A stretch of 64,000 bases of DNA from an uncultured bacterium (GTDB lineage: Bacteria > Bacillota > Clostridia > Oscillospirales > Oscillospiraceae), in the NCBI GenBank assembly GCA_949293245.1, contig CASFCS010000010.1:1-64000 (forward strand). Reading direction: 5' to 3'. The translations under genes were made by a program, and so were the position numbers. Shown one piece after another: positions 44,725 to 62,778 of the stretch (position 1 is its first letter; each line of letters opens with the position of its first letter). Under the pieces are notes generated by a model. That model did not search any database and was not told where the DNA came from. It saw only the letters and a program-made list of their open reading frames with translations.

Positions 44725-44762
44725 AGTTTTCTCGCTCCTTATGTGAAAAAATGAAAGATCTC

Positions 44763-45737
44763 TCAGTTTGCCCGGCGGATGGGCTGCTCCGTCTCCAGGG
44801 GGAACTCCAGCAGCTTTGTCCCCTCCAGGTCCTCCCGGTTCATGTCCACCGCGGTGAGGCGGCTGTTGCCGTAGGTCTTGTAGTAGTAAACCCCCCGGGC
44901 GGCGTCGGCGCAGCAGGCGTACCGGGTGATGTCGCACGCCCCCTGGGGGGTGATGACGCACCCCCGCACCATGGACACGCTGTCCAGGATGTGGAAAAAC
45001 TCCGTCACCGCCGCCCCCTCCTCCGGGGGACACTGGGAGTTGGCCCGGCCGAAGGCCGCCCGCACGAAGCGGGAGGCGGGGGAGGCGTCCCCCGGCAGGC
45101 CCAGGGCTCCCATGCCCTGGCCGTAAGGGGTAAGGGACAGCGCCCCCCCGAAGCGGCAGGTGGGGGGCTGAGGGGTGAGGTTGAGAAAGCCGCGCAGGTA
45201 TGTCATGTGGTAGGGGAAGGGGGGCTCGTTGGTGAGGACCCCGGCGGGGTTGTCGTACACCTTCAGCCCCTCCGCCACGGACTCCACCACCAGGCAGTCC
45301 CTGCCGTCGGCCACCATCCAGTGGAGGGGGGCCAGGGGCAGCTTCCCCAGGGGGAGGGCCGCCACCTCCAAATCGGGCAGCACCCGGCGCACCTGTTCCA
45401 CGGTGTCAAACTGGCCCAGCAGCCAGGGGATGAGCTCGTAGGGGGCCAGGTGGGTCATGCCGGGGGTGAGGGTCTCCCGGTAGACGGCGCTCTCGGGGAA
45501 GTAGAGCCCCGCCATGCCCAGCCCCTTCTCGTTCACCGCCTCGGCAAAGAGGGGAAACCCCTCCGCCGCGCTGGCCATGCCGATCATGGCGTGGTGCCGG
45601 GTGAGGGGGGGCTGCCGCCGGAACGTGAGGGGCAGCGCCCGGGGGGCGATGATCACCCGCTGGTCAAAGTCGTACTCCAGGTCCAGGGTGCGGCCGAAGT
45701 AGTGGCCGCCGCGGTTCATGGTGACACAGGTACACAT
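44763..45737 (-). CDS. choloylglycine hydrolase family enzyme (bile salt hydrolase or penicillin V acylase type)
   Basis: This 324-aa Ntn-hydrolase should self-process to expose Cys2 (MCTCV) as nucleophile. Conserved Arg16 and Asp19 (GRTLDLEY) and the NEKGLGMAGLYFPES loop are seen. In classical bile salt hydrolases the position of Tyr79 in AGLYFP is usually Asn, while Tyr is typical of penicillin V acylases, so bile salt activity is uncertain. There is no signal peptide, so the enzyme is cytoplasmic. ATG 45737 follows GGAGG, and it has its own promoter. Confidence 0.87.
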   Translation of the reverse strand: MCTCVTMNRGGHYFGRTLDLEYDFDQRVIIAPRALPLTFRRQPPLTRHHAMIGMASAAEGFPLFAEAVNEKGLGMAGLYFPESAVYRETLTPGMTHLAPYELIPWLLGQFDTVEQVRRVLPDLEVAALPLGKLPLAPLHWMVADGRDCLVVESVAEGLKVYDNPAGVLTNEPPFPYHMTYLRGFLNLTPQPPTCRFGGALSLTPYGQGMGALGLPGDASPASRFVRAAFGRANSQCPPEEGAAVTEFFHILDSVSMVRGCVITPQGACDITRYACCADAARGVYYYKTYGNSRLTAVDMNREDLEGTKLLEFPLETEQPIRRAN

Positions 45738-45830
45738 ACGCGCGCCTCCTTCAAAGGCCCATTTGGGGGCCCGGTTGTGCCTACAGTATGCCCCGGCGGG
45801 GCAAAAGCTCCCGCGGATGAAACCCCACCC

Positions 45831-45859
45831 AGTATACCATTTTTTGTCCCGCCCGTCCA
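45831..45859 (-). promoter_or_regulatory. promoter of the choloylglycine hydrolase-like gene
   Basis: Leftward TGGACG (45854-45859), 17 bp, TATACT (45831-45836). The -35 box is imperfect. Confidence 0.6.
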
Positions 45860-45904
45860 CAAAAAGCGGGGACGGTCCTGCGCCCCGGGACAAAAACAAC
45901 GGCG

Positions 45905-45936
45905 GACGCCCCTCCGGCCTTGGGCCGGAGGGGCGT
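45905..45936 (-). terminator. terminator of the first GH3 gene
   Basis: Arms GACGCCCCTCCGGCC and complement with a short loop. Read leftward it is followed by GTTGTTTTTG. Confidence 0.85.
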
Positions 45937-45971
45937 CTGCACAGCGTAGTATATGGAAGAGGAATAGGACC

Positions 45972-48900
45972 TTAGTCCTTTTTCTTGCCGCCCTTCACGG
46001 CGGTGACGGCGGCCCAGGCCACGCTGGCGGCCAGGAGCACGCCGGAGGCAATGTCCACAGCCAGCAGGGTCTTGTGCCACCAGGGCATGACCGACACGAT
46101 CTGGGTGCCGGCGGCGATGCCGTTCATGGCGTTGGAGTGGGCCACGGCGTAGCAGATGCGCTTGGCGGCGGTGCGCATGGCCCAGGCCATCTGGGCGTAG
46201 TCGCCGGTGCCGTCACTGCCGGGCCGGTAGGCGTCGAACTGGGCCTCGTGGCCGGAGCCGTCGGGGATGTCGCACCCGCCGGTGTACACGCCGTAGGCCA
46301 GCTCAAAGTAGGGGGAGTTGTCTTGGGCGCCGTTCATGTCGGTGTACATATCGGTGACGATGATGCCCTGCATCCCGCACTCGCCCCGGAGGAAGTCCTG
46401 GCCCAGCACCCCGTCGGAGGGGCCGGCCATGGTGCCCAGGCGGGCGAAGGAGGCCATGGTGTTGAAGGCGCCGCCCAGGGTGATGGGCAGCTCGAAGGCC
46501 CGGAGGTAGATCTCACGGAGGGCCTGCTCGTTGACCCACACGCCCACGCCGTGGCGGGCGGTCTCCTGGTCGTTGATGACGCAGTGCTTGTTGTACACGT
46601 GGACGCCCTTCTCCTCAATGCCCTTGCACTCGGAGGCGGCCATCAGGCCGGTGAGGGTGCCGCACTCGCTGTAGTACTCGGCGGTCCGGCCCAGGTAGGG
46701 GCTGCGGTGGATGTTGGCGCCGATGCCGTACAGGCCGGCGCAGCCGCACCAGATGCCGTTGTTGCCGATGATGTTGCCCACCCGGTAGGCGATGTCCCGG
46801 TTGAAGGTGGCGGCGATGATGCCGTTGGCGGGGAAGGCGGTGGTCTTCAGGTTGGCGTTGGGGTCGGCGTCCTCGGTGAGGTTGCCCTCGCTGTCCACGT
46901 GGCCGGCGGCCTCCTCAGCCCGGTAGGCCAGGCCCTCCTTCTGGGCGCCGTACTTCAGGTTGAAGCCGTTGGGGCCGTTCTCGTCGTTGGTCTCGGGCTT
47001 GTTGATGGACTCCACCAGGGCGGTGTTGTGGTAGCCGGTGCTCACCAGGGTGGCGATCTCATCCCAGGTCAGCTGGTCCATGAAGGTGTCCCACAGGGGG
47101 TCGTCGATGTCGATGGGGTTGCCCTCGCTGTCCACCCGCATGTCCACCAGGCTCAGCCCGGCGTCCTGGCCGTAGGTGGGGTACTCCTGGGCGGTCTCAT
47201 CGGTGGGCAGGGGAATGCCGTACTCCACAGGGCACTGCTTGAGGATGTCCTGGGCCATCTGCTCGGTGGCGGAGATGACGGGGCGGCCGTTCTCCCGGTC
47301 CAGGGACACGGTACCCGCCCAGTTGGCGCGGTCGTAGTAGGTGACGGAGTTGTCCCCCCGGCCCTCATAGCGGTTGATGTCGGCGTAGCCGAACATGGCG
47401 GTGATGGGGCTGCCGGTGGCGTCGGAGAAGGCGTACTTCTCGGTGTTCAGGTCCATGGTGACCTTGTACACCAGGTCGCTGGTACCCTGGCCCACCATGC
47501 GGCTCTCGTCGGCGCCCTTGGCCATGAGGATGTTGTTTACGGCGTCGTGGGCGTTGGCGGCGGCGGTGAGGTAGTAGTCCCCGGGCATGAGCACGTAGGT
47601 GCCCGCGCCGTACACGTCGAAGGAGGCGAAGTACTTCTCATCCACGTTGATGGTGAGGGTCTCGGTCTGGCCGGGGGCCAGGGCGGAGGTCTTGCCGAAC
47701 TCCACCAGCTCCACGGAGGGGACCTGGATCTGGTTCTGGATGGCGTAGTCGCCGTAGGGCTTGGAGACGTAGATCTGGACGGACTCCTTGCCGGAGTAGG
47801 TGTCGCCGGTGTTGGTCACGTCCAGGGACACCTGGTAGGTGCGCTCGTCGGTCTTGGTGACCTGGAAGTTGCTGTACTCGAAGGTGGTGTAGGACAGGCC
47901 GTAGCCGAAGGGGAAGGCCACCACTTCGCTGTAGTCGTAGTCGCCCACGTTCTCGGCCCCCATCACCGCGTCCTCATAGCGGGTCTCGGTGTAGCGGTAG
48001 CCCAGGTACATGCCCTCCTGGTAGACGGTGTAGGCGTGGAGGGTGGGCTCGGGCACAAACATGTTGCCCTGCTTGCTGAGGATGCCGAACTCGTCGGCGT
48101 TGGCGTACTCGTCGTAGCCGTAGTTCACGTTGACGGGGTTCATCTCGTGGCTCATCCAGAAGGTGTCGGACAGCTTGCCGGAGGGCACATACTCGCCGGT
48201 GAGGATCTTGCCCACGGCGGTGGCGCCGTTCTGGCCCAGGGTGCCCACCCACAGCGCCGCGTCAATGCCGTACTGGGGGTCGCTGATGAAGTCGGCGGAG
48301 AGCATGCTGGCGCCGTTGTAGATGAAGATGATCTTGCTGAACACCCCCTGGTCCTTCAGGGCCTTCAGGCCAATGAGGGTGTCCATCTCCCGCTGGGTCA
48401 GGTGGAGGAAGTCGCCGTTGTAGCCGTCGGCGGTGCTGTCCATGGACAGGTCGGAGCCCTCGCCGCCCACACGGCCGGTGATGTAGATGGCGGCGTCGCC
48501 GTAGGCGGCAAAGGTGTCCCCGGCAGCGGCAGTGACCATGTCAAAGGGCACGCCGCCGATGTACACGCCGCCGCTGCCGGCCCAGCCCAGGGTGGCCCGG
48601 CGGTAGTGGATGGAGGCGTCGTACTCCCCGGCGCCCTCGCCCATCCAGTTGCCCGGATCGGGGGCGGTGTACCAGGTGGTGAGATAGTTGTCCTTCAGGG
48701 TGGGGTTGAGCACCAGGCCGGCGGCCTCAAAGGCGTCGTAGAAGTTCACGGCCATGGTGGTGTCCACGCTGCCCGAGCCGGTGCCGCCGTAGATGGGGTC
48801 GGCACTGGTGACGCCAAAGACGCTCACGTTCTGGCCGGAGGCCAGGGGCAGGGCGTTGTTGTCGTTTTTCAGCAGCACGGCCCCCTCGGACATGACCTCC

Positions 48901-49145
48901 TCGGTCATATCCGCGCCGGCCTGGACCAGGTCGGCCAGCTGGGTGAAGTCGGACTTGTAGTACTCGGTGTCCTGATTGGCGGCGTCCTCGCTGACCACGG
49001 TCTCAAAGGAGGATGTTCCCAGGGCACTGTTGATGGCGTTGGCGTTCTCCAGAGCGATGACGGTGCCCATGGAGGAGAAGCCGAACACCAGGGTGAGAAG
49101 CACGATGACGATCTTCTGCAGCAGCTGCAGCCCTTTCTTCTTCAT
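45972..49145 (-). CDS. membrane-anchored GH3 beta-glucosidase with swapped domain order
   Basis: This 1057-aa glycoside hydrolase would release glucose from beta-linked oligosaccharides outside the cell. The order is unusual: the alpha/beta sandwich domain comes first (SEGAVLLKND near residue 90), then a fibronectin-like domain (AFPFGYGLSYTTFEYSNF ... VTNTGDTYSGKESVQIYVSKP), then the TIM-barrel catalytic domain last, with the candidate nucleophile Asp in GIIVTDMYTD (about 930). Hydrophobic helices at both ends (about 10-35 and the last 35 residues) would anchor both termini. ATG 49145 is chosen for spacing to AAGGAGG. The GTG at 49154 is too close. Confidence 0.9.
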   Translation of the reverse strand: MKKKGLQLLQKIVIVLLTLVFGFSSMGTVIALENANAINSALGTSSFETVVSEDAANQDTEYYKSDFTQLADLVQAGADMTEEVMSEGAVLLKNDNNALPLASGQNVSVFGVTSADPIYGGTGSGSVDTTMAVNFYDAFEAAGLVLNPTLKDNYLTTWYTAPDPGNWMGEGAGEYDASIHYRRATLGWAGSGGVYIGGVPFDMVTAAAGDTFAAYGDAAIYITGRVGGEGSDLSMDSTADGYNGDFLHLTQREMDTLIGLKALKDQGVFSKIIFIYNGASMLSADFISDPQYGIDAALWVGTLGQNGATAVGKILTGEYVPSGKLSDTFWMSHEMNPVNVNYGYDEYANADEFGILSKQGNMFVPEPTLHAYTVYQEGMYLGYRYTETRYEDAVMGAENVGDYDYSEVVAFPFGYGLSYTTFEYSNFQVTKTDERTYQVSLDVTNTGDTYSGKESVQIYVSKPYGDYAIQNQIQVPSVELVEFGKTSALAPGQTETLTINVDEKYFASFDVYGAGTYVLMPGDYYLTAAANAHDAVNNILMAKGADESRMVGQGTSDLVYKVTMDLNTEKYAFSDATGSPITAMFGYADINRYEGRGDNSVTYYDRANWAGTVSLDRENGRPVISATEQMAQDILKQCPVEYGIPLPTDETAQEYPTYGQDAGLSLVDMRVDSEGNPIDIDDPLWDTFMDQLTWDEIATLVSTGYHNTALVESINKPETNDENGPNGFNLKYGAQKEGLAYRAEEAAGHVDSEGNLTEDADPNANLKTTAFPANGIIAATFNRDIAYRVGNIIGNNGIWCGCAGLYGIGANIHRSPYLGRTAEYYSECGTLTGLMAASECKGIEEKGVHVYNKHCVINDQETARHGVGVWVNEQALREIYLRAFELPITLGGAFNTMASFARLGTMAGPSDGVLGQDFLRGECGMQGIIVTDMYTDMNGAQDNSPYFELAYGVYTGGCDIPDGSGHEAQFDAYRPGSDGTGDYAQMAWAMRTAAKRICYAVAHSNAMNGIAAGTQIVSVMPWWHKTLLAVDIASGVLLAASVAWAAVTAVKGGKKKD

Positions 49146-49150
49146 GGTAT

Positions 49151-49624
49151 TCACGCCTCCTTATCCTTGACCTGCTTGAGAAATACGTTCACCAGGTTGA
49201 GCACCAGCATGGCCACAAAGAGCACGGTGCACAGCTGGAACTGCCAGTTGAAGGTGGACGCCTGAATGCCCACCATTACCACGGACACATAGAAGTAGAT
49301 GCCATAGATGTAAAAGAGCAGTCCCACAAAATTGGCCAGGGCCAGCACCGCGCAGGCCCACTTGGCCTGGGGGGTGAGGGCCAGCACCAGGGAGAGGGCC
49401 GCGCCCACCAGCATCACCGCCATGGCCGTCCAGGACATGTAGCGGGAGCTGTGGTAGAGGGCGGTGTACACCAGGGCCACCGCCACGGTGGCGGCGATGA
49501 GCACCAGCGTCACATAAAAGCCGTAGCTCTTATTGCGCAAAACGCGATTTCCCGTTTCCAACCTTGATTCCTCCTCGATCTGTTTTGGGAGGGGATTGGG
49601 GGACTTTTTCCACATTTCTCTCAT
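49151..49624 (-). CDS. hypothetical four-helix membrane protein upstream of GH3
   Basis: I do not recognise this 157-aa protein. After about 38 polar residues (EMWKKSPNPLPKQIEEESRLETG) it has four hydrophobic segments ending at NLVNVFLKQVKDKEA. ATG 49624 follows GGAAAGGAGAGG. It ends six bases before the GH3 start, so the two are co-transcribed and perhaps physically linked in the membrane. It is preceded by the terminator of the kinase gene. Confidence 0.78.
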   Translation of the reverse strand: MREMWKKSPNPLPKQIEEESRLETGNRVLRNKSYGFYVTLVLIAATVAVALVYTALYHSSRYMSWTAMAVMLVGAALSLVLALTPQAKWACAVLALANFVGLLFYIYGIYFYVSVVMVGIQASTFNWQFQLCTVLFVAMLVLNLVNVFLKQVKDKEA

Positions 49625-49681
49625 TTCCTCTCCTTTCCAGTCATGTTTCCCTCTGTTCCCCTCGGTTGCCTGGACCATAAC

Positions 49682-49714
49682 AAAAAAATGCGGCTTCCAC
49701 AATGGAAACCGCAT
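49682..49714 (-). terminator. terminator after the first sensor kinase gene
   Basis: In the leftward RNA the arms ATGCGGTTTCCA and TGGAAGCCGCAT pair (one G-U) and are followed by seven T. Confidence 0.87.
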
Positions 49715-49749
49715 AGTTGGTTTAATTCTTATCATATCTGACATATGGC

Positions 49750-51048
49750 CTACCCGGCGCAGGCCAGCAGCAGCACGTCCAGCCGGAACATATTTCCACT
49801 GCTCTCCACCGCCAGGGACCCGTGGTACTTGTCCGCCACCCGCTGCATGCTGCGCATGCCAAAGCCGTGGTACCGGGGGTCCCGGGCACTCTGGGGCAGG
49901 CCGCCCCGGAGCTCCACCTCCTGACAGCAGGGGTTTTCCATGTGGATGGCCACCATGTCCCCCTCCCGCTTCACGGTGAGGGTGATGAACCGCTCCCCCT
50001 GGGGCAGCTGGCTCACCGCCTCGATGGCGTTGTTCAGGGCGTTGTTGAACAGACTGTAGAGGTCCAGCTCCTCCACAAAGTCCAGCCCCGCCCCGTCGGC
50101 ATAGCAGGTGAGGGGGATGCCCCGCTGGTGGCACAGCCCCCGCTTCTCGCTGAGGACCACGTCCAGCACGTCGCTGCCGGTGTGGACAAAGTCCTCGTAG
50201 GTGCTGATGCTCTCCTCCAGCTTCTCCAGCTGTTCGGCGGACACCTGGCCCCGGAAGGTCACCAGCAGCTGCTTGAGGTCGTGGTACTTTTCGTTCACCA
50301 GCTCGGCGCTCTCCTTGCTGGCCTGGTACTGGGCGTACTGCTGGTGGGCCAGCTCCGCCAGGGCCTCCGCCCGCTGGGCCAGGCGGTTGCGGTCCATGAC
50401 GCCGTACTGCACCAGCAGGACAAACACGTCGCTGAGCAGCCGGTAGAGGGTGAGGGCCAGGAGCACCCGGGTACTGTGGCCCGAGCCGTCCCGGGCAATG
50501 CGGGTGAGCCCTGCGCACAGCAGCAGCACCACCAGGGAAAACACCACCTTGGTGCGGCTGGTAAAGCTCTCCGCCCCCCGGCGGGTGAAGGCCCGGAAGC
50601 AGAAGTAGGCCAGCAGGTAGATCCCCCCGTAGCACACCGCGTCCAGCAGCAGCACCCCCGGGGTGGTGGATGCCATCTCCTGGGTCAGGGGAAAAAACGG
50701 GTAGCGCAAAATGGTCTTCACGCCGCTGGCCAGGTCCTGGGTGACATAGCCCGAGGCCACCACAAACAGCACCGTCCACAGGGACTCCCGGTAACACAGC
50801 ACGGTGATGCCAATGAGCATGAGGTAGAGCAGGGCAATGGTGGCAAACTGCCCCACCTGCCCCCGGTTGTACAGCAGCCGGGTGATGAGCTCCACCGCCC
50901 CCATTCCCACCGCCAGGGACACAAGGAGCCGGGGGATAAACCTCTCCCGCCGCTCCAGGGCGTAGCTGAACACCAGCACCCCCGCCATGGCCTGAAAGAG
51001 CAGCAGGGCCTGCCAGTGGTCGTCATACCATACGGGCAATCCGGCCAT
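49750..51048 (-). CDS. sensor histidine kinase, AgrC-like GHKL type
   Basis: This 432-aa kinase has an N-terminal membrane region of about six helices (to about 215), a coiled-coil segment with the phospho-acceptor His in NEKYHDLKQLL, and a GHKL ATPase domain (LFNNALNNAIEAVSQLPQ as N-box; YHGFGMRSMQRVADKYHG as G-box). It shares one base with the upstream regulator gene (TGATG). It resembles peptide- or membrane-sensing kinases of the AgrC/LytS group. Position next to the GH3 operon suggests control of glycan use. Confidence 0.88.
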   Translation of the reverse strand: MAGLPVWYDDHWQALLLFQAMAGVLVFSYALERRERFIPRLLVSLAVGMGAVELITRLLYNRGQVGQFATIALLYLMLIGITVLCYRESLWTVLFVVASGYVTQDLASGVKTILRYPFFPLTQEMASTTPGVLLLDAVCYGGIYLLAYFCFRAFTRRGAESFTSRTKVVFSLVVLLLCAGLTRIARDGSGHSTRVLLALTLYRLLSDVFVLLVQYGVMDRNRLAQRAEALAELAHQQYAQYQASKESAELVNEKYHDLKQLLVTFRGQVSAEQLEKLEESISTYEDFVHTGSDVLDVVLSEKRGLCHQRGIPLTCYADGAGLDFVEELDLYSLFNNALNNAIEAVSQLPQGERFITLTVKREGDMVAIHMENPCCQEVELRGGLPQSARDPRYHGFGMRSMQRVADKYHGSLAVESSGNMFRLDVLLLACAG

Positions 51049-51758
51049 CAGAGACTTCCCCCTTTGTACTGGGCCAGGGCCTGTAAAAACTCCTTCCGGC
51101 GGGTGCGGGAGATGGTGAGGGCGGCGTCCCCCACCAGCACCTGCCCCTTCTGGATGCCGGTGACATACTTGAGGTTCACCAGGTAGCAGGTGGAGCACCG
51201 GGCGAAATGGGCCCCCCGCAGCAGCTCCTCATACTTGGAGAGGGTGCCCCACTGCCTGATGGTCTCCGTACTGGTGTGGAGGTACAGGTCGTGGGCGGAG
51301 ACCTCGATGTAGGTCAGGCTGTCCGCCGGGATGCGCCGCTGCCCCTCCCGGGTCTTCAGGTCCAGCATAAGGCCGCTCTCCCGGTAGGACAGGGCCCGCA
51401 GGGCCCGCTGGAGCTTGTTGGAAAAGGAGACGTAGTTGAGGGGCTTGAGGATATAGTCAAAGGCGTTGACCGAGTAGCCGTCGATGGCGTACTGGGCCAG
51501 GTTGGTCACAAAGATAATCATCACCTTTTCGTCCATCTGGCGGATGCGTCGGGCGGCCTCGATGCCCAGCATGTCGGGCACCCGGATGTCCAGCAGCGCC
51601 AGGTCCGTGTCCTGGCTGTAGGCGTCCAGCAGCTTATAGGCCCGGTCGTACACCTCCAGCACGCAGGAGAAGTCCGGGTTCTCCCGCTGGTAGGTGTGAA
51701 AAAACTCCGTCAGCTGCCTGGCCTGGCCCTCCTCGTCCTCCAGAATACAGATTTTCAT
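51048..51758 (-). CDS. LytTR-family response regulator
   Basis: This 236-aa regulator has a receiver domain (EDEE pocket, phospho-Asp in LALLDIRVPDM, Lys in ILKPLN) and a C-terminal LytTR DNA-binding domain (IPADSLTYIEVSAHDLYLHT ... GAHFARCSTCYLVNLKYVTGI). LytTR regulators bind direct repeats upstream of target promoters. First gene of a regulator-kinase operon with a near-consensus promoter. Confidence 0.92.
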   Translation of the reverse strand: MKICILEDEEGQARQLTEFFHTYQRENPDFSCVLEVYDRAYKLLDAYSQDTDLALLDIRVPDMLGIEAARRIRQMDEKVMIIFVTNLAQYAIDGYSVNAFDYILKPLNYVSFSNKLQRALRALSYRESGLMLDLKTREGQRRIPADSLTYIEVSAHDLYLHTSTETIRQWGTLSKYEELLRGAHFARCSTCYLVNLKYVTGIQKGQVLVGDAALTISRTRRKEFLQALAQYKGGSL

Positions 51759-53473: not shown

Positions 53474-53510
53474 AAAAAGAGACGGCTGCCACCGGCAGCC
53501 GTCTCTTTTT
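53474..53510. terminator. terminator of the GTPase-nuclease gene
   Basis: AAAAAGAGACGGCTGCC and its complement around ACC: a long stem with A-run and T-run, able to act in both directions. Confidence 0.88.
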
Positions 53511-53548
53511 GCCGTCCCTTCCCCCTCCGCGCCCGGCGGAGCGGGGTG

Positions 53549-56212
53549 TTATGTCTCCTTCTCCGGCGCCCGGGGGACCACCCGGGCGGTGTGGCGCAGC
53601 TTGTCCATGCCTGTGTTTTTCCGGTTGTGGGCCTGGATGAGGCGGGTGAGCTCCCCCCGACTCTCCTCCACCTCCTGTCGGAAGGCCCGGGCGGACAGCC
53701 GCAGGGCCCCGTGGCCCAGGATGATGAGCTGCTCCAGATAGTCCGAGGTGGCCACCCGCACCCGGTGGTCCTTGCCCAGATCGTAGGTGGCCTTCTCGAT
53801 ATAGGCGTCGGCGGTCTCCGCCTCCCGGGTGTACACCACGTACAGCCCCTTGCGCCGCTCCACACTGCCGGGGTTGCCTTTCACCTTGTAGGCGTCAAAC
53901 ACCAAAATTACCTGGCACCCCCGCTGGCTTCGGTAGTCCGCCAGGATATCCGTCAGGGCCTCCCGGGCGGCATCCACGTCCTGGGCCGCCAGGGCCCGCA
54001 GGTCCTCCCAGGCCCAGATGATGTTGTATCCGTCCACCAGCAGGTACTCCGGCCCGGTCTTTTCTTGCCGGATGTGGTACTTCCTGTCGTCCAGGCTGGT
54101 GCGGGCGGGCTTTTTCTGGGGCTGGAAGGCCCGGCGCTCCACCTTGCCGTAGGTCCGCTCGAAGATGGCCTGGAGCTCCTTGTCCTGGTCAAAGCCCCCG
54201 GCCTCCCGGCGGGGCCGGGGGGCGGGGGCGGGGTCAGGGTCCGACCCGTCCTCCCGGGGGACATAGGCCCAGGGCAGGTGCATGTGGGCCTCCACCTGGT
54301 CCCACTCCACGGCGTGGCCCGCCCCGTGGCTGCAAAACACCGAGCCGCAGGGGTGGGCGGTGTCCCGGTCGGGGTCGTACCCCGCCGCCTCCACCACCTC
54401 CGGGGTGTTGTGGCAGGGGAGGTACCCCCCGAAGGCGCAGCTCAGCCGCCCCTGTCCCCTGGTGTAGGCCGTCACTTCCCGCTGGTAGTCCCCCAGGACT
54501 GCCGCCGGGGCGCTGCCCGAAAAGACCATGTCCATCCCCCGGCTGACGGGGCCCTCCCCCTGGGCCCCCAGGCGCTGCAGGTCCGCCATGGCCCGGCCCG
54601 CAGTATCGGCGGGCACCTCCAGGGTGAAGGTGTACCAGGGCTCCAGCAGCACGCTCTCCCCCCGGCGCAGGCCGTGGCGCACCGCCCGGTAGGTGGCCTG
54701 GCGGAAGTCGCCCCCCTCGGTGTGCTTCTCGTGGGCCCGGCCGGAGAGGAGGGTGATGCGCACATCGGTGAGGGGGGCGCCGGTGAGGACCCCCCGGTGG
54801 GTGCGCTCGGTGAGGTGGGTGAGGATGAGCCGCTGCCAGTTCCCGGCGAGGACCTCCTGGGGGCAGGCGGCCGCCACGGTGACGCCGCTGCCCGGCTCCC
54901 CGGGCTCCAGCAGCAGGTGGACTTCCGCGTAGTGCCGCAGGGGCTCGAAGTGGCCCACCCCCTCAACCGGGGCGGCTATGGTCTCCTTGTACAGGACGCC
55001 CGGGGGGCCGAAGGTGACGGCGAAGCCGAACCGCTCCCGGATCTTGTCCTCCAGCACCTCCAGCTGCACCGCCCCCATGACCTGGAGGCGCAGCTCCCCC
55101 AGCTCCTGGTCCCACAGCACCCGCAGCTGGGGGTCCTCCTCCTCCAGCTGGCGCAGCTTTTCCAGGGCGGTGTGGGGGGCAAGGCCCTCGGGCAGCTCCA
55201 CCCGGCAGCACCACGCCCCCTCCAGCATGGCCCGGCGGCCCTCCGCCGCTTCCCCCAGCCCCTGGCCGGGGCGGGTGTGGCTCAGACCGGCGACGGCGCA
55301 CACCGTGCCGGCGGGGGCCTCCTCCAGGGGGCGGAACTTCTCCCCGGAGTAGAGGCGCAGCTGGTCCGCCTTCTCCTCCCAGCCCTCCCCCCGGATCAGG
55401 TCCTTCACCCGCAGCACCCCACCGGTGACCCGCAGGTGGGTCAGCCGCTGGCCCTGGGGGTCCCGGGTGATCTTAAATACCCGGGCGGAGAACGCCTCCG
55501 GCCAGGCGGGGGCGGGCAGAAGGGCGGGCAGCCGGGTGAGGAGGTCCTCCACCCCCTCCAGCTTCAAAGCGGAGCCGAAAAAGCAGGGGAACACCTTCCG
55601 CGCCCCCACCAGGGCGGCCACGTCCCCCTCTCCTGGGGGCATGCCCTCCAGATAGGCCTCCAGCAGCCCCTCGTCCCGGAGGGCCAGCTCCTCCGCCAGG
55701 GCGTCGGGGGAGAGGTGGGTGAAGTCCACGAAGCCCTCCCCCAGGCCCCCCAGGGCCTCCAGCACCGCCCCGGGGTCCGCCCCCGCCAGGTCCATCTTGT
55801 TGACAAAGAGCACCGTGGGCACGGCGTAGCGCTCCAGCAGCCGCCAGAGGGTGCGGGTGTGGCCCTGGACCGGGTCGGTGCCGCTGACCACCAGCACGGC
55901 GCAGTCCAGCACCTGGAGGACCCGCTCGGCCTCGGCGGCAAAGTCGGCGTGACCAGGGGTGTCCAGCAGGGTGAGGACCGCCCCCTCCACCTCCGCCACT
56001 GCCTGCTTGGAGAAGATGGTGATGCCCCGCCGGCGCTCCATGGGGTCCGTGTCCAGAAAGGCGTCGGCGTGGTCCACCCGGCCCAGCCTGCGCACCGCCC
56101 CGGCGGTGTACAGCAGCCCCTCCGCCAGGGTGGTCTTGCCCGCGTCCACGTGGGCCATCAGGCCCACGCAGATGCGCCGCTTTTCTCTTGTCCCTTCCGC
56201 CTGTCGGCCCAT
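53549..56212 (-). CDS. TetM-like translational GTPase fused to a Rae1/YacP-type NYN ribonuclease
   Basis: This 887-aa fusion begins with an EF-G/TetM-like part (about 1-650) with AHVDAGKTTL (P-loop), RGITI, DTPGH, NKMD and domains II-V as in ribosomal protection proteins. A Pro/Arg linker follows. From about 718 a domain very like YacP/Rae1, the ribosome-associated A-site endonuclease of Bacillus, is seen: LLVDGYNIIWAW, VILVFDAYKVKG, YTREAETADAYIEK, VATSDYLEQLIILGHGALRLSAR. The acidic metal-binding residues are kept. I infer that the GTPase part delivers the nuclease to ribosomes. ATG 56212 follows a GGGAGAGGGAGA site. Simple tetracycline resistance is the alternative role for the N-terminal part. 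Confidence 0.9.
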   Translation of the reverse strand: MGRQAEGTREKRRICVGLMAHVDAGKTTLAEGLLYTAGAVRRLGRVDHADAFLDTDPMERRRGITIFSKQAVAEVEGAVLTLLDTPGHADFAAEAERVLQVLDCAVLVVSGTDPVQGHTRTLWRLLERYAVPTVLFVNKMDLAGADPGAVLEALGGLGEGFVDFTHLSPDALAEELALRDEGLLEAYLEGMPPGEGDVAALVGARKVFPCFFGSALKLEGVEDLLTRLPALLPAPAWPEAFSARVFKITRDPQGQRLTHLRVTGGVLRVKDLIRGEGWEEKADQLRLYSGEKFRPLEEAPAGTVCAVAGLSHTRPGQGLGEAAEGRRAMLEGAWCCRVELPEGLAPHTALEKLRQLEEEDPQLRVLWDQELGELRLQVMGAVQLEVLEDKIRERFGFAVTFGPPGVLYKETIAAPVEGVGHFEPLRHYAEVHLLLEPGEPGSGVTVAAACPQEVLAGNWQRLILTHLTERTHRGVLTGAPLTDVRITLLSGRAHEKHTEGGDFRQATYRAVRHGLRRGESVLLEPWYTFTLEVPADTAGRAMADLQRLGAQGEGPVSRGMDMVFSGSAPAAVLGDYQREVTAYTRGQGRLSCAFGGYLPCHNTPEVVEAAGYDPDRDTAHPCGSVFCSHGAGHAVEWDQVEAHMHLPWAYVPREDGSDPDPAPAPRPRREAGGFDQDKELQAIFERTYGKVERRAFQPQKKPARTSLDDRKYHIRQEKTGPEYLLVDGYNIIWAWEDLRALAAQDVDAAREALTDILADYRSQRGCQVILVFDAYKVKGNPGSVERRKGLYVVYTREAETADAYIEKATYDLGKDHRVRVATSDYLEQLIILGHGALRLSARAFRQEVEESRGELTRLIQAHNRKNTGMDKLRHTARVVPRAPEKET

Positions 56213-56302
56213 GGTCGTCTCCCTCTCCCGGTTTTGATGTATTGTAGTAGTATACCACACTCCCGTCCCCCCGTCGAGACGGCCCTTTCCCCCTCTCTCC
56301 CA

Positions 56303-56343
56303 TAAAAAGGCGCCGGGCCGGGTACAAGACCCGGCCCGGCGCC
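56303..56343 (-). terminator. terminator of the second GH3 gene
   Basis: 15-bp stem GGCGCCGGGCCGGGT with ACAAG loop. Read leftward it is followed by five T. Confidence 0.88.
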
Positions 56344-56398: not shown

Positions 56399-59300
56399 TC
56401 AGTTCCCCTTCTTCTCCTGCTTCCAGCGGCGCACGATGGCCACCACGCCCCAGATGATCAGGGCGGCCGCCACCACGCCCTCACCGATGAGGATGAAGTA
56501 GTAGTTGGCGAAGGGCAGCTCGTTGATGACGGTGCCGTGGACAATGCCGTTCATGGCGTTGGAGTTGACGGTGGTGTACAGGATGTGCTTGATGGCCTGA
56601 CGGGCAAAGTACTGGGAGGCGGGGTTGGTGATGTCCAGAGGCGCGTCCACCGCGTAGCCGGTGAGCTTCAGGTCGCCGCCGGCCCGGATGCACTGCTCGG
56701 TATCCATGACGCCGCCGTTGTCGTAGTCGGTGATGATGGTGCCGTCAAAGCCCCACTCGTTGCGTAGCACGCCGGTGAGCAGGTTGTAGTTGCCGCCGGC
56801 CCACACGCAGCCCACCCGGTTGAAGGAGGACATGACGGCCATGACGGCGGGGATCTGGGCGGTGGTCTCGGTGTAGGTGCCGGTGGACTCGTCGTACTCC
56901 TGGACCTTGATCTCGGTCATGGGCCGCTCCTCGATGCAGGTCTGGAAGGGCTTGAGGTAGATCTCCCGGATGGCCTGCTCGTTGGCGAAGGTGGCCACGT
57001 GGCTGCGGTGATCCTCCTGGTCGTTCAGGGCGAAGTGCTTGATGTAGGCGTACACGCCCTTCTCGGCGCAGGCGGAGGCGGCCTGGAGGGCCAGCTCGCC
57101 GGAGATGAAGCCGTCCTCGGAGTAGTACTCGAAGTTACGGCCGGCGAAGGGGGTGCGGTGGATGTTCATAGCGGGGGCGTACCAGCCGGTAATCAGGCCG
57201 ATGTAGGTGTGGTCGCCCCAGTTGCCGTCGGCGGCCAGGGCGTCCTCGCCCACATAGTAGCCGTGGAGGTAGGAGTTCTCACGGTCCCAGCTGTTGGCCA
57301 GGTTGGTGGCGCAGGGGTAGGTGATGGAATAGGGCTCGTGGGTGATGCCGCCCTCGTTCAGGCCGGAGGGGCCGTCGTAGTCGATGGCTCTGGGCTTGCC
57401 GATGTTGGAGGAGGCCAGGGTCTGGTAGCCGCCGTTGCGGATGATGGACTCCAGCTCCTCCACGTCCATCTGGTCGATGAGGGCATCCCAGCCGCCCTCG
57501 GCCTCCACCTCGTCATAGTCCCGGCCGCGGAAGTCGATGAGCTCCAGGTCGCCCGCCTGGCTGTAGCTGCCCGCCATGGCGGCGGCCTCGTCCTCGGTCA
57601 TGGGGTTCATGGAGGCCCCCACGCCCTTGGCCTTGATCGTGTCCTTCATCTCATCGGAGATCTCCACCTCCCAGGTGTAGCCGTTCTTCTCGCTGAACTC
57701 GCTCTTGCGCTGGCTGTCCTGGTCGCCGTGGGTGGTGGGGAAGGTGCCCACCCAGTCCTGCCGGGTGAGGTACTCCTCCCGGGGGGTGAGCTCGTCCCAC
57801 ACGGCGTGGTCGAACTGGTTGGTGATCTCGGCGCCGGCGGCGGAGACGGAGTAGGTGACATTGTCAACCCCGTTGTTCTCGGAGTAGACATAGGTCCACT
57901 TGCCCACGAAGCTGGCGTCGGGCTGGCCGAACAGGCCGTCGTTGGCCACGCCGTTGTAGGCCAGGAAGTTGTTGTTGGCGGCGTGGACGTTCTGGGCGGC
58001 GGTGAGGAGGTAGTCCCCGGCCTCCAGGATGTAGGTCTTGGCGTTCACGTCGTCGTAGGAGATGAAGTCCTTCTGGTTGACGGTGACGGTGACGGTCTCG
58101 GACTGGCCGGGCTGGATGTCGCCGGTCTTCTCAAAGCCCACCAGGGCGGAGGAGGCCTTCTCCACGAAGTTGGCCTTGTCGTAGTCGGTGTAGGGGGCGT
58201 TCAGGTAGACCTGGACCACGTCCTTGCCGGCCACGTCGCCGGTGTTGGTGACGGTGACCTGGATCTGGATGTCGCCGTTGGCGTCCATGTCGCTCATGGT
58301 GAAGTCGGACCACTCAAAGGTGGTGTAGCTCAGGCCGTAGCCAAAGGGATACTGCACCACGTCGCCGTAGGTGTAGTCCCCGGCGTTGCCCTGGTTCATG
58401 GCCTTGTCAAAGTAGCGGGTCTCGTAGTACTTGTAGCCCACGTAGATGCCCTCGTCGTAGAACACGCCGGCCTCCACGTCCTCGCCGTTGTTGACCAGCA
58501 TCATGTCGCCCATGTTCTGCATGGCGGGGGAGGAGAAGGCGTCATAGGCAAAGGTGTCCACCAGATGGCCGGAAGGGTTGACCTTTCCGCTGAGCACGTC
58601 GGCGATGGAGCGGCAGGTGTCGCCGCCGGCGCCGGGGGCCCAGAGCACCGCGGTGATGTTCTCATAGTCGGACACCCAGCCCAGCTCAAAGGCGTTGTTG
58701 GTGTTGACCACAATGATCACGTTGTCAAAGTTGTCGTTCAGGTAGCTGATGACCCCCAGCTCCACGGAGTCGGGCTCCAGGTAGTGCTTGTCCTTGTCCT
58801 CTTCAATGTCGGTCCAGTCGCCCATGTAGCGGCCCAGGTCCCGGCCCTCGCCGCCGGTGCGGGCGAGGAAGAACACGGGGATGGTGTCCACCGCCTCAGT
58901 CTTGGCCTCATCGGGGATGGCGGAGATGGGGGCCTCGTTAATGGACCAGTCCTCGGCGCCGCCGTACATGATGGCGCCGCCGCCCCGGGTGTAGGTGTCG
59001 TGGTTGTCGCTGTAGAAGTCCCACAGAGACTCATTGATGCTGAAGCCCTGCTCGGTGAGGGCGGTGCGCATGTCGCTGGAGATGGTGCTCACGCCGGAGC
59101 CGGTACCGCCGGCCAGCAGGTCCACGGAGGAGGCGGAGAACAGGCTCAGCTTGGAGCCCGCCGCCACAGGCAGGCCCTTGCCGTCCTGGGTGTTGTTGTA
59201 CAGCAGCACGAAGCCCTCGGCGCCGGCCTTGCGGGTGTAGGCCTGCTCCGCCGCCTGGAGCTCGTCAGAGTCGGTGATGTCCCGGGTATAGTAGGTGGCA

Positions 59301-59488
59301 TCCACCCCGTCAGGACCGGAGCTGGTTTCAAACTCGGTCTCACCAAAGATGTCCCGGAGCACCAGGTCGAACATGGACGTGGTTACCGTGGACAGCACGA
59401 TGGAGAATGCCAGCAGGATGGCCAGCAGCGGCGCCACGATCATGGTAAATGTCTTGGCGCTGAGCTTTTTCTTCTTTTCCTTTGCCAT
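56399..59488 (-). CDS. second membrane-anchored, domain-swapped GH3 glycosidase
   Basis: This 1029-aa enzyme has the same layout as the GH3 at 46 kb: N-terminal membrane helix (about 14-38), sandwich domain (GTGSGVSTISSDMRTAL; RTGGEGRDLGRYMGDW), fibronectin-like domain (VQYPFGYGLSYTTFEWSDF ... VTNTGDVAGKDVVQVYLNAPY). The barrel comes last, with KHFALNDQEDHRSHVATFANEQAIREIYLKPF and candidate nucleophile GTIITDYDNGG (about 918). A final membrane helix and basic tail follow. The two copies differ throughout, so the duplication is old or they have different specificities. It lies 137 bp after the GH16 gene on the same strand and may share its transcript. Confidence 0.9.
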   Translation of the reverse strand: MAKEKKKKLSAKTFTMIVAPLLAILLAFSIVLSTVTTSMFDLVLRDIFGETEFETSSGPDGVDATYYTRDITDSDELQAAEQAYTRKAGAEGFVLLYNNTQDGKGLPVAAGSKLSLFSASSVDLLAGGTGSGVSTISSDMRTALTEQGFSINESLWDFYSDNHDTYTRGGGAIMYGGAEDWSINEAPISAIPDEAKTEAVDTIPVFFLARTGGEGRDLGRYMGDWTDIEEDKDKHYLEPDSVELGVISYLNDNFDNVIIVVNTNNAFELGWVSDYENITAVLWAPGAGGDTCRSIADVLSGKVNPSGHLVDTFAYDAFSSPAMQNMGDMMLVNNGEDVEAGVFYDEGIYVGYKYYETRYFDKAMNQGNAGDYTYGDVVQYPFGYGLSYTTFEWSDFTMSDMDANGDIQIQVTVTNTGDVAGKDVVQVYLNAPYTDYDKANFVEKASSALVGFEKTGDIQPGQSETVTVTVNQKDFISYDDVNAKTYILEAGDYLLTAAQNVHAANNNFLAYNGVANDGLFGQPDASFVGKWTYVYSENNGVDNVTYSVSAAGAEITNQFDHAVWDELTPREEYLTRQDWVGTFPTTHGDQDSQRKSEFSEKNGYTWEVEISDEMKDTIKAKGVGASMNPMTEDEAAAMAGSYSQAGDLELIDFRGRDYDEVEAEGGWDALIDQMDVEELESIIRNGGYQTLASSNIGKPRAIDYDGPSGLNEGGITHEPYSITYPCATNLANSWDRENSYLHGYYVGEDALAADGNWGDHTYIGLITGWYAPAMNIHRTPFAGRNFEYYSEDGFISGELALQAASACAEKGVYAYIKHFALNDQEDHRSHVATFANEQAIREIYLKPFQTCIEERPMTEIKVQEYDESTGTYTETTAQIPAVMAVMSSFNRVGCVWAGGNYNLLTGVLRNEWGFDGTIITDYDNGGVMDTEQCIRAGGDLKLTGYAVDAPLDITNPASQYFARQAIKHILYTTVNSNAMNGIVHGTVINELPFANYYFILIGEGVVAAALIIWGVVAIVRRWKQEKKGN

Positions 59489-59625
59489 GATAATGAATTC
59501 CCTCCAAATGGTGATGATGATTCACACGCTTGGGTTCCTCTTTCCACGGGCCGGCAGGGCCGGCCAAACATAAGGGGGGTATCAGATGGGGAAGCTGTGC
59601 CACGCTCCCCCACCTCTGGGGACAA

Positions 59626-60501
59626 TCAACCCTCGGCGGGGGCGGTCTCAAACACCTCGCCCACGGCGCTGGTCTTGACCCACTGGTAGTCCGCCTGGCT
59701 GGTGCCGGCGGTGTAGGCCCCCATCCAGCCCTCGGCGTCGGGGGTGCCGCACCAGAAGTTCATCAGGATGCGGCCGGGGGTAGAGGGCATGGGGCCGTTG
59801 TCCTGGGCGTTGACGCTGTACACGGCCTCGCCGTCCACAAACCAGGTGATGGAGTCCTCGGTCCAGCGGAAGCCGTACTCGTGGAACTCCTCGGAGGCGT
59901 CAAAGCCCAGCTCGTACCAGTACTCGTGGCCGCCCACGCCGTCCACATAGTAGTTGAACTGCACGCCGGTGGTGTCCTTGCCCAGGAACTCGATGTCGAT
60001 CTCGTCCCAGGGGTTGGCCTCGCCGTCCACGTTCACGTCGTAGGGGCCGGTGCAGGTGAAGAAGGTGCTGGCGGTGCCCGCGTCCTTGGAGGGCTTCATG
60101 CTGACGGAGTAGTCGCCGTAGCCGTAGTACAGACCGGTGCGCATCTCGCCGCCATAGTAGTCCTGCTCCACGTCATCCCCGGCGGGGCTGATGTGGAGCT
60201 GCATCTGGCCGTCGTTGTAGGTGACATGGTCCCCGGCCCACCACACATTGAACACGCTGCCGTTGGACCAGCCGTCGGAGGGGAACATGGCCTCCACGGC
60301 GCCGTTGGAGAAGTCGGCCAGCACCTCGCCGCCCAGGGGCTCCACCTCGGGGGTCTGGCTGTCCTGGGGCTGGCTCTCCTGGGGCTGACTGGCGGAGGGG
60401 CTGCCGGAGGGGGACGGGCTCTCCTGGGGCTCTTCACCGCAGGCGGCCAGGGCCAGGGTCATGGCCACGGCCAGACCCAGCGCGAGGATCTTCTTTTTCA
60501 T
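59626..60501 (-). CDS. GH16 endo-beta-1,3(4)-glucanase lipoprotein (lichenase-like)
   Basis: This 291-aa secreted lipoprotein has a signal ending LAAC (Cys21), a Ser/Pro/Gln/Glu linker (22-55) and a GH16 domain. The catalytic motif DEIDIEFLG (about residue 166) has both glutamates of the retaining mechanism. Flanking aromatic motifs (GWSNGSVFNVWWAGDHV, FHEYGFRWTEDSITWFVDG) match lichenases. It would cut mixed-linkage or 1,3-beta-glucans at the cell surface into oligosaccharides for the GH3 enzymes. ATG 60501 follows AGGGAGAG. Confidence 0.92.
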   Translation of the reverse strand: MKKKILALGLAVAMTLALAACGEEPQESPSPSGSPSASQPQESQPQDSQTPEVEPLGGEVLADFSNGAVEAMFPSDGWSNGSVFNVWWAGDHVTYNDGQMQLHISPAGDDVEQDYYGGEMRTGLYYGYGDYSVSMKPSKDAGTASTFFTCTGPYDVNVDGEANPWDEIDIEFLGKDTTGVQFNYYVDGVGGHEYWYELGFDASEEFHEYGFRWTEDSITWFVDGEAVYSVNAQDNGPMPSTPGRILMNFWCGTPDAEGWMGAYTAGTSQADYQWVKTSAVGEVFETAPAEG

Positions 60502-60612
60502 TTCTGTTCTCTCCCTTTCAATGTAATCTTGACCGGGCGCCCGGACCCCTGTGGACTGGCACACATCCATAAAATAAGCCCGCGGCCACCGGTCTTCCGC
60601 GGGCAATATAGC

Positions 60613-60645
60613 AAAAGGAACACCCATTGACAATAGGTGTTCCTT
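60613..60645 (-). terminator. terminator of the second sensor kinase operon
   Basis: AAGGAACACC and GGTGTTCCTT arms with an extra inner ATTG/CAAT pairing. Read leftward it ends in TTTTG. It lies 38 bp after the kinase stop. Confidence 0.8.
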
Positions 60646-60682
60646 AAACTGCACGTTTTTTTCGTATTCTGCAAATTTCCCT

Positions 60683-62059
60683 TCAGCTATGGCCCGCAGG
60701 GCTGCCGCTGAAGAGGATGTTCAGATGAAACACGTCCCCGCTGATATAGGTGGTAAGCTCCCCCTCGTACTTGTGGACGATCATGCGGATGCTGCGCATG
60801 CCGAAGCCGTGGTACCCCTTATCCTCCTTGGTGGTGACGGGCAGGCCGTCCTGGAAGGTGAGGGAGCCGTCGAAGTAGTTGTCCGCCTGGATGATCAGCA
60901 TGTCCCCCCGGCTCTTCACCACCAGGTTGATGACCCGCCGCTCCCGCTGGCCGATGGCCTTCACCGCCTCCAGGGCGTTGTCCAGCACGTTGCCGAACAG
61001 ACAGTACAGGTCGCTGCCCTCCATAAAGTCCAGCTTCTCCCCGTCGGCCATGCAGGAGAGGTTGATGCCGTTTTGCTCGCAGTAGAGGCTCTTCTCCGTA
61101 AGGAGCACGTCCAGCAGCTGGTTGCCTGTCTCAATCCTGGCGTCGTAGATGGAGATGCTCTCCTGCAGGTCCGCCATAGCGTCTCCCTCCAGGGCACCCC
61201 CCTGGGCGGCCAGGGTGCCCAGCTTGTAGCGAATGTCGTGGCACTTGATGTTGATGAGCTCAATGGTGTCCCGGGAGATCTCATACTGCCGCTCGCTCTG
61301 GCGGATGGCGTGCTGGAGGTACTCCACCTCCTGCTTGAGCTCCCGCTGCTCCACGGTGCGGGAGGCCAGCAGCAGCACAATAGAGCAGCACGCCACGGAG
61401 AAGAGGTTCCCCGTCTGCCGCAGCACGCCGTACTCCGGCCGGTCAAACACGTTCTCCGCCCCCACGCTGAGCTTGGCAAAGTAGATGTCCTCGATGGAGC
61501 ACAAAATCACCGTGATGATCAGGGTGATCACCGAGATGGCCAGCAGCCGGTAATCCATCCTCCAGCTGGATATGTGGCGCACCTGGGGCCGGATAAAGAG
61601 GAAGTACACCGCCGCCGCCACGGCGGCAAAAAAGATGTAGTACAGGATGCGGTAATACAGGTTGAAGTTGGCCCCCCAGCTTTCGTACAGGCGGAACGCC
61701 AGCCCCAGGCACCAGGCCATCAGGTGGAACTTGTAGCACAGGTTCTGGGCGGCGTAGGCCACGGAGCAGCAGAAGAGCACCGTGGAAAAGGGCTCCTCAA
61801 AGCACAGCCACACATGGACCATGGTGGCCGCGAAGAGGAAGAGGTACACCCCGATGCGGCCCACAACCGTCTGTCCGCACAGCTGGTACACCGCCGCCAC
61901 CCCGAAGGCCAGGATCAAAATCACCGCCAGGCCCCCGATGGCCCGGTGCCAGAACCGGGAGGCCCGGTTGAGCTTCCAGGTGATAAGGGTGTAAAACACA
62001 TACAGCTCAAAGAGAAACTCCAGGATGATGTCCTTGTATGTAAAGATCAGCCCTTCCAT
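60683..62059 (-). CDS. second sensor histidine kinase, AgrC-like GHKL type
   Basis: This 458-aa kinase has about six membrane helices (to about 235) and a coiled coil (EQRELKQEVEYLQHAIRQSERQYEIS). The phospho-acceptor region is NIKCHDIRYKLGTL and the GHKL ATPase domain has LFGNVLDNALEAVKAIGQ and YHGFGMRSIRMIVHKYEG. It has the same architecture as the kinase at 50 kb, so the two systems are paralogous. ATG 62059 is used. The GTG at 62065 overlaps the regulator stop and is an alternative. Confidence 0.88.
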   Translation of the reverse strand: MEGLIFTYKDIILEFLFELYVFYTLITWKLNRASRFWHRAIGGLAVILILAFGVAAVYQLCGQTVVGRIGVYLFLFAATMVHVWLCFEEPFSTVLFCCSVAYAAQNLCYKFHLMAWCLGLAFRLYESWGANFNLYYRILYYIFFAAVAAAVYFLFIRPQVRHISSWRMDYRLLAISVITLIITVILCSIEDIYFAKLSVGAENVFDRPEYGVLRQTGNLFSVACCSIVLLLASRTVEQRELKQEVEYLQHAIRQSERQYEISRDTIELINIKCHDIRYKLGTLAAQGGALEGDAMADLQESISIYDARIETGNQLLDVLLTEKSLYCEQNGINLSCMADGEKLDFMEGSDLYCLFGNVLDNALEAVKAIGQRERRVINLVVKSRGDMLIIQADNYFDGSLTFQDGLPVTTKEDKGYHGFGMRSIRMIVHKYEGELTTYISGDVFHLNILFSGSPAGHS

Positions 62060-62061
62060 AC

Positions 62062-62778
62062 TCACTGCCCCCCTATGGACCCGGCGTACCAGTTGGCCAG
62101 CTCCGCCATAAAGGCCGCCCGCCGGGGGCGGCTGATCTGGAGGACGTTGTCCCCCACCTGCACGGTGCACCCCTTCACCTTCACGATGAACTTGGGGTTG
62201 ACCAGATAGCACTTGTTGCACCGGAGAAAGCCGAAGGCGCTCAGCTCCTGCTCCACACCGGACAAAGCGCCGGTGCGCTCGATGACGTCGTCAATCAGGT
62301 GGTAAAAGAGGCGGTGGTTCATGATTTCCACATACATGAGCTTGTCTGTGGAAATGCGGCACAGACCCCCCGCGGAGCTGACGGTAAAGCTGCGGTCCTC
62401 GTTCATGATGTAGATGTCCAGGGCCTTTTTAAATTTCAGGGAGAAGTCGTAGTAGCTCACGGGCTTTACCAGGAAGCTCACGGCGTCCACCTCGTACCCC
62501 CGCAGGGCGTACTGCACCAGATTGGTGATAAAGATGATGGACACGTTCTTGTCCTGCCGGCGCAGCTCCACCGCCGCCTCCATGCCGTCCTTTTTGGGCA
62601 TCTGGATATCCAGAAATACCACAGCATAGGCGGGCTTATAGTCCCGCAGGAATTCCTCCCCATCCCGAAACCGGGTGATGCGGAACTCCTGCCCGAACTG
62701 GGCCGCGTACTGCTCCACATATCCCTCCAGCCGCCGGGCCGCGTTGTCCTCGTCCTCCACAATGGCAATATTTCTCAC
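62062..62778 (-). CDS. second LytTR-family response regulator
   Basis: This 238-aa regulator has a receiver domain (EDED pocket, phospho-Asp in VVFLDIQMPKKDG, Lys in LVKPVS) and LytTR domain (STDKLMYVEIMNHRLFYHLID ... AFGFLRCNKCYLVNPKFIVKV). The start is GTG 62778 after GGAGGGG. It precedes its kinase in the same operon. The GH16 gene follows that operon on the same strand and is a likely target. Confidence 0.92.
   Translation of the reverse strand: MRNIAIVEDEDNAARRLEGYVEQYAAQFGQEFRITRFRDGEEFLRDYKPAYAVVFLDIQMPKKDGMEAAVELRRQDKNVSIIFITNLVQYALRGYEVDAVSFLVKPVSYYDFSLKFKKALDIYIMNEDRSFTVSSAGGLCRISTDKLMYVEIMNHRLFYHLIDDVIERTGALSGVEQELSAFGFLRCNKCYLVNPKFIVKVKGCTVQVGDNVLQISRPRRAAFMAELANWYAGSIGGQ

Follow-up and report, generated by a model that had tools for sequence, protein, structure and literature searches.

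A widespread clostridial fusion of an EF-G/Tet-type GTPase to a Rae1-type nuclease, and the loss of the free Rae1 tail from its fused copies

The 64,000-nucleotide stretch of DNA analysed here (the window), from an uncultured bacterium of the Oscillospiraceae, carries a gene that joins an EF-G/Tet-type ribosome-binding GTPase to a Rae1-type nuclease in one chain, an assignment that is secure by homology. The explanation that best covers all of the evidence, and which we rate at slightly better than even, is that the product acts as a ribosome-directed endoribonuclease. The architecture itself, described in an earlier note on this DNA, was already known: in 2015 ten clostridial species were reported to have Tet-like proteins carrying an NYN domain of the YacP type, and that work classes these Clostridiales proteins as Tet proteins with a possible role in resistance (Atkinson 2015, PMC4342817). 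They have the same architecture and come from the same bacterial group, and the window protein fits the set as described there. Added here, relative to that account, are a far wider distribution, domain trees that point to one origin, a clade of its own for the GTPase with its own tip motif and a Cys/His extension, and the loss of a C-terminal tail in the fused copies. The tail difference is the most useful lead of the analysis, and we know of no earlier report of such a difference between free and fused Rae1. Experimental study of the fusion was not found in the literature searched.

The gene lies on the minus strand, with its ATG at 56212 and its stop at 53549 (888 codons including the stop), and translates to 887 amino acids. 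The earlier note had read one frame joining a TetM/EF-G-like factor to a YacP/Rae1 domain, without giving the strand; the single 887-aa frame and the Pfam matches confirm both this reading and the domain names used for it (five EF-G-type domains plus NYN_YacP). The features of the gene are:

53549..56212, minus strand: whole coding sequence, 887 aa, an EF-G/Tet-like translational GTPase, a linker and a Rae1/YacP NYN nuclease (translation, Pfam, AF2)
55514..56179, minus strand: G domain, residues 12-233, with AHVDAGKT, DTPGH and NKMD intact (Pfam GTP_EFTU, 1e-44; invariant in 98 fusions)
55265..55492, minus strand: domain II, residues 241-316 (Pfam EF-G_D2)
55007..55162, minus strand: domain III, residues 351-402 (Pfam EFG_III)
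54662..55003, minus strand: domain IV, residues 404-517 (Pfam EFG_IV)
54701..54745, minus strand: tip loop of domain IV, residues 490-504, SGRAHEKHTEGGDFR (53 subfamily GTPases aligned to TetM/S/O)
54404..54652, minus strand: domain V, residues 521-603 (Pfam EFG_C)
54278..54427, minus strand: Cys/His extension, residues 596-645, with C600, C627, H645 and usually also H629
54047..54277, minus strand: flexible linker, residues 646-722, holding a conserved short helix (AF2 pLDDT, conservation)
53600..54043, minus strand: Rae1-type NYN nuclease domain, residues 724-871, lacking the LxxxRR tail that ends free Rae1 (Pfam NYN_YacP, 4e-47)

All six Pfam domains (GTP_EFTU, EF-G_D2, EFG_III, EFG_IV, EFG_C and NYN_YacP) exceed their curated cut-offs, NYN_YacP with 160.7 bits against 24.6, and the GTPase part has the G motifs and the full EF-G domain order I-V that place it in the translational GTPase superfamily. 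In the AF2 model of the whole protein (mean pLDDT 78, pTM 0.58), residues 6-616 align with ribosome-bound EF-G at a Z score of 39.7. A fold search with the whole model returned the GTPase part alone, so the NYN domain was folded separately; its nearest structure was then Rae1 (Foldseek to 5mq9, 2e-12, probability 1.00). By sequence it matches Bacillus subtilis Rae1/YacP (5mq8, 5mq9) at 4e-27, with 40-42% identity over the aligned fold and with the NYN fold and acidic residues shared. The plus strand holds a 919-aa open frame (53546-56305) opposite the whole fusion gene, with a comparable long frame at related loci; it is a GC-rich shadow frame and may mislead gene finders.

Between the two catalytic parts lie two conserved elements. 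The Cys/His extension adds 50 residues after domain V, in which C600 and C627 are present in 98/98 fusions, H645 in 97/98 and H629 in 83/98; it is common to the unfused GTPase relatives, and those without H629 often have a Cys directly after H645. From this pattern C600, C627 and H645, usually with H629, form a putative metal site. In alignment the extension occupies the position of the TetM C-terminal helix, which is reported to be important for TetM function (PMC4750697). The linker contains a short helix at about residues 673-689, ELQAIFERTYG (consensus ELxAIFERTYG), with T687 in 92 and Y/F688 in all 98 of 98 fusions. AF2 gives this helix a pLDDT of about 55-67 and the residues on either side less than 50, and with this low-pLDDT linker and the pTM of 0.58 there is no confident placement of the NYN domain on the GTPase. 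Docking of the helix on the NYN domain was considered and rejected, since the model has no confident contact between them.

Conservation across relatives argues that both halves are under selection: GTPase residues H21, D23, K26, H88, N138, K139 and D141 and NYN residues D727, N730, D773, D802, E806, S823 and D824 are each kept in 97-98 of 98 fusions. The catalytic residues of the nuclease are thus intact, as the earlier note had supposed, the acidic ones being retained across homologues, and D727, D773, D802 and D824 are matched also in the alignment with Rae1 from the PDB. Frameshifts or stops between the halves are absent from 71 near-full-length, single-frame relatives found in named genomes of the Oscillospiraceae and Lachnospiraceae. 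Split genes in relatives were considered for four short NYN frames from the order-level search and rejected, all four lying near contig ends. Judged from these sequences, the fusion is a maintained protein and a real join rather than an accident of assembly.

The fusion is widespread in gut Clostridia, with a core-like distribution over many families, usually in single copy and chromosomal. At class level about 134 of 391 genomes have it, nearly all without another Rae1; this figure combines 124 genomes with a GTPase frame of at least 780 aa, every one of which (124/124) also has NYN_YacP, with about ten fusions interrupted by contig ends. In the same sample NYN_YacP occurs in 249/391 genomes and the GTPase extension in 164/391; 93 genomes have NYN_YacP without the GTPase, 8 have the GTPase without NYN, and some encode an unfused GTPase alongside a separate gene for free Rae1 (e.g. 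G407, G502, G532, G600, G448, G479 and G497). The order-level search found NYN_YacP in 78/245 genomes, in frames that almost always measured 830-1000 aa; two thirds of the genomes in the order are without any. The eight GTPase-only genomes, together with these two thirds, indicate that the GTPase has a role that needs no nuclease and that the whole is dispensable, which counts against the ribosome-directed endoribonuclease. Plasmid carriage is rare: among 1322 plasmid records with a match, just two span 80% of the gene at a single location, and one of these is a Monoglobus replicon of 518 kb.

The earlier note had implied that the host has no separate yacP, and this proved right, the fusion being the sole NYN_YacP in its own genome; in the class sample a second NYN_YacP match occurs in only 5 of about 134 fused genomes (G374, G377, G439, G478 and G561). 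Both matches in G374, a genome 61% complete, are fusions, on different contigs. In G561 the free Rae1 sits in the canonical order mrnC-rlmB-rae1-sigH, the names being given by reading of the sequences. The window's own genome has mrnC and rlmB on different contigs and its sole NYN gene on a third.

Both domain trees are most simply read as one ancient fusion with rare separations. In the GTPase tree the fused copies form one clade (SH-aLRT 100) and the unfused copies lie outside it, save that of Bifidobacterium aemilianum; in the NYN tree the fused copies are all on one side (SH-aLRT 98), where the two free copies of G479 and G497 also fall, and strict monophyly of the fused NYN domains is not rejected (p-AU 0.08). 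The B. aemilianum gene (L103, 5980-8103), from an actinobacterium, encodes a GTPase without NYN nested among fused clostridial copies, likely because the gene was transferred horizontally and its nuclease part was then lost. The free Rae1 copies of G479 (L149) and G497 (L152) keep an LxxxRR-like tail, with the GTPase gene elsewhere, and would either come from a fusion that split and regained its tail or be remnants of the lineage that donated the domain.

That tail separates free Rae1 from most fused copies. Rae1 of B. subtilis stands alone as a protein of some 170 aa that ends in the LxxxRR tail, and in a motif search 19/19 free copies ended in L-x-x-[hydrophobic]-R-[R/K/L]; the GTPase-tethered NYN domain of the window's protein is without it, as are 92/97 fused copies in all (about 95%), and the five that match the motif are probably chance matches. 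The last Arg of the motif aligns with residue 166 of B. subtilis Rae1, and a suppressor screen in that species yielded R166P, treated as a Rae1 loss-of-function allele (PMC6613710). Of the two crystal structures of Rae1 (5mq8, 5mq9), one is by its title that of a W164L mutant, a change that also lies in the tail. Since R166P is treated as inactivating B. subtilis Rae1 and fused copies mostly have no tail, the GTPase may replace the tail as ribosome anchor: the tail would assist free Rae1 in its action on the ribosome and would have become dispensable once the nuclease was tethered.

The gene has a promoter-like site of its own and terminator-like hairpins on both sides:

56249..56277, minus strand: promoter-like TCGACG-17-TATACT with an extended -10 TG, about 37 bases 5' of the ATG (consensus scan)
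56312..56335, minus strand: terminator-like hairpin that belongs to the upstream GH3 gene and keeps the two transcripts apart
53481..53493, minus strand: weak terminator-like hairpin 3' of the fusion gene

The promoter scan of the region found 3 sites against 0.2 expected. A leader peptide was not seen 5' of the gene, unlike at the tetM locus examined for comparison, nor was a mobile-element or resistance-gene context seen around it. Across 80 loci, the gene and shadow frames aside, widely conserved neighbours are absent, the top neighbour family occurring in only about 17-18; an operon or defence-island context was rejected on this ground. The promoter-like site, the flanking terminator-like sites and the want of conserved neighbours or mobile context favour a housekeeping role in quality control or mRNA decay over acquired resistance, and the antibiotic trigger raised in the earlier note finds no support in such a locus.

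How the two halves might work together can be set out from their homologues. B. subtilis Rae1 is described in two reports as a translation-dependent endonuclease of the ribosomal A site (PMC6613710; PMC10100781). By homology, the GTPase in its GTP state would dock at the factor site of the ribosome with domain IV reaching the decoding centre, presumably preferring ribosomes whose A site is open because they are paused or stalled, and would anchor the nuclease there, a part played in free Rae1 by its basic C-terminal tail. That the GTPase binds the same site as Rae1 had been offered as an argument for this arrangement, which it is, but it is equally a difficulty, as domain IV and the Rae1 domain would compete for the A site; as they cannot fill it together, they would act in turn. 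Upon GTP hydrolysis domain IV would withdraw and the NYN domain, tethered by about 75 residues of linker, could enter the vacated A site, or alternatively meet the mRNA at the entry side, and would then cut it; the truncated complex could be freed by tmRNA/SmpB, both of which are present in the window's own genome. Ribosome targeting by the fusion is well supported; A-site cleavage by the fused nuclease we infer. The earlier proposal of a ribosome-targeted, mRNA-cutting enzyme fits the evidence and is strengthened by the missing free-Rae1 tail, although the joint function is likewise one that we infer. The most specific version, a GTP-driven mRNA-cutting factor whose GTPase delivers its own nuclease to the A site, having replaced the docking tail of Rae1, is tentative and in our estimate less likely than not. 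If true, bacteria would have a GTP-controlled step by which to cut mRNA on selected ribosomes, and the unfused GTPase would be a partner of Rae1 in Clostridia that keep separate genes. An old, natural and widespread fusion to an A-site GTPase is a testable hint on how Rae1 finds paused ribosomes, and the tail loss points to the piece that the GTPase may replace.

Atkinson 2015 suggested a protein that protects against tetracycline or another A-site antibiotic and that gained the nuclease as a further means of resistance; this has to be weighed against the reading above, and we regard it as improbable. The best NCBIfam match is indeed tet_protect (NF012153), at 360.1 bits and so below the family cut-off of 775. 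In the wider GTPase tree the subfamily and Tet (TetM, TetO and TetS only) form separate clades, each with 100/100 support, with Tet as a weak sister (88/82) on long branches. The likeness to TetM named in the earlier note is only distant: the five-domain GTPase is shared, with 27-30% identity to TetM/TetO. The domain IV tip reads [KQ]HT[EDQS]GGD[FM]R in 53/53 members of the subfamily, whereas TetM, TetS and TetO have SPVSTPADFR, so that the fusion has no SPVSTP loop III; Pro509 of that loop is located at C1054 in the drug site (PMC8161019). The tip loop is equal in length to that of TetM, and the TetM triple mutant S508A P509A V510A can be active (PMC4750697), so the tip sequence alone does not exclude drug release. 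The replaced C-terminal helix region, the missing leader peptide, the lack of any sign of mobility and the old, chromosomal, usually single-copy presence over many families all weigh against resistance, and we advise caution in annotating these fused proteins, abundant in the gut, as tetracycline resistance genes; NCBI annotates the Monoglobus orthologue as 'translation factor GTPase family protein'. With elongation factor G the fusion shares domain order and fold, and its tip keeps an EF-G-like histidine, H494; it is not the translocase, because the genome also encodes a canonical EF-G as well as another protein resembling EF-G.

A fusion that merely ensures co-expression of two independent activities, with the GTPase freeing or resetting paused ribosomes and the NYN domain processing mRNA, tRNA or rRNA outside the A site, would account for halves that are found apart in other genomes and for a linker that is long and disordered in the AF2 model, and NYN domains were once proposed for tRNA/rRNA maturation (cited in PMC4342817). 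We consider this rather unlikely, though the likeliest of the alternatives, because a single fusion kept over dozens of families, the near-exclusion of a separate Rae1 and the lost tail suggest mutual dependence between the halves. A role in stress or defence, in which the GTPase senses ribosomes damaged by drugs or phage and the nuclease shuts down translation, has a precedent in ribosome-dependent nucleases such as RelE, which act in stress (PMC2807027); with its core-like distribution, no toxin-antitoxin layout, no widely conserved neighbours and a weak PADLOC match at the level of the GTPase only (LeoA, 5e-5), we give this very little credence. A ribosome-directed endoribonuclease is the reading that we retain.

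Two fusion-bearing records labelled 'Bacteriophage sp.' (MT835563.1, L203, and MT835514.1, L204) led us to consider a phage origin, which was rejected: both are marked UNVERIFIED, housekeeping genes of bacterial type flank the fusion (among them those for MraW, FeoB, Sir2 and a tRNA synthetase of the glutamyl type), and the records resemble mislabelled bacterial contigs. Elsewhere in the window, the minus strand holds two similar blocks (44751-51758 and 56399-62221), each with a large GH3-type beta-glucosidase (1060 and 1029 aa, with membrane segments) near a GHKL-type sensor kinase; in the first a LytTR-type regulator adjoins the kinase, and the second includes a GH16-like lipoprotein, all of these names being given by eye from translated sequence. 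The two are possibly duplicated sensor-plus-hydrolase modules.
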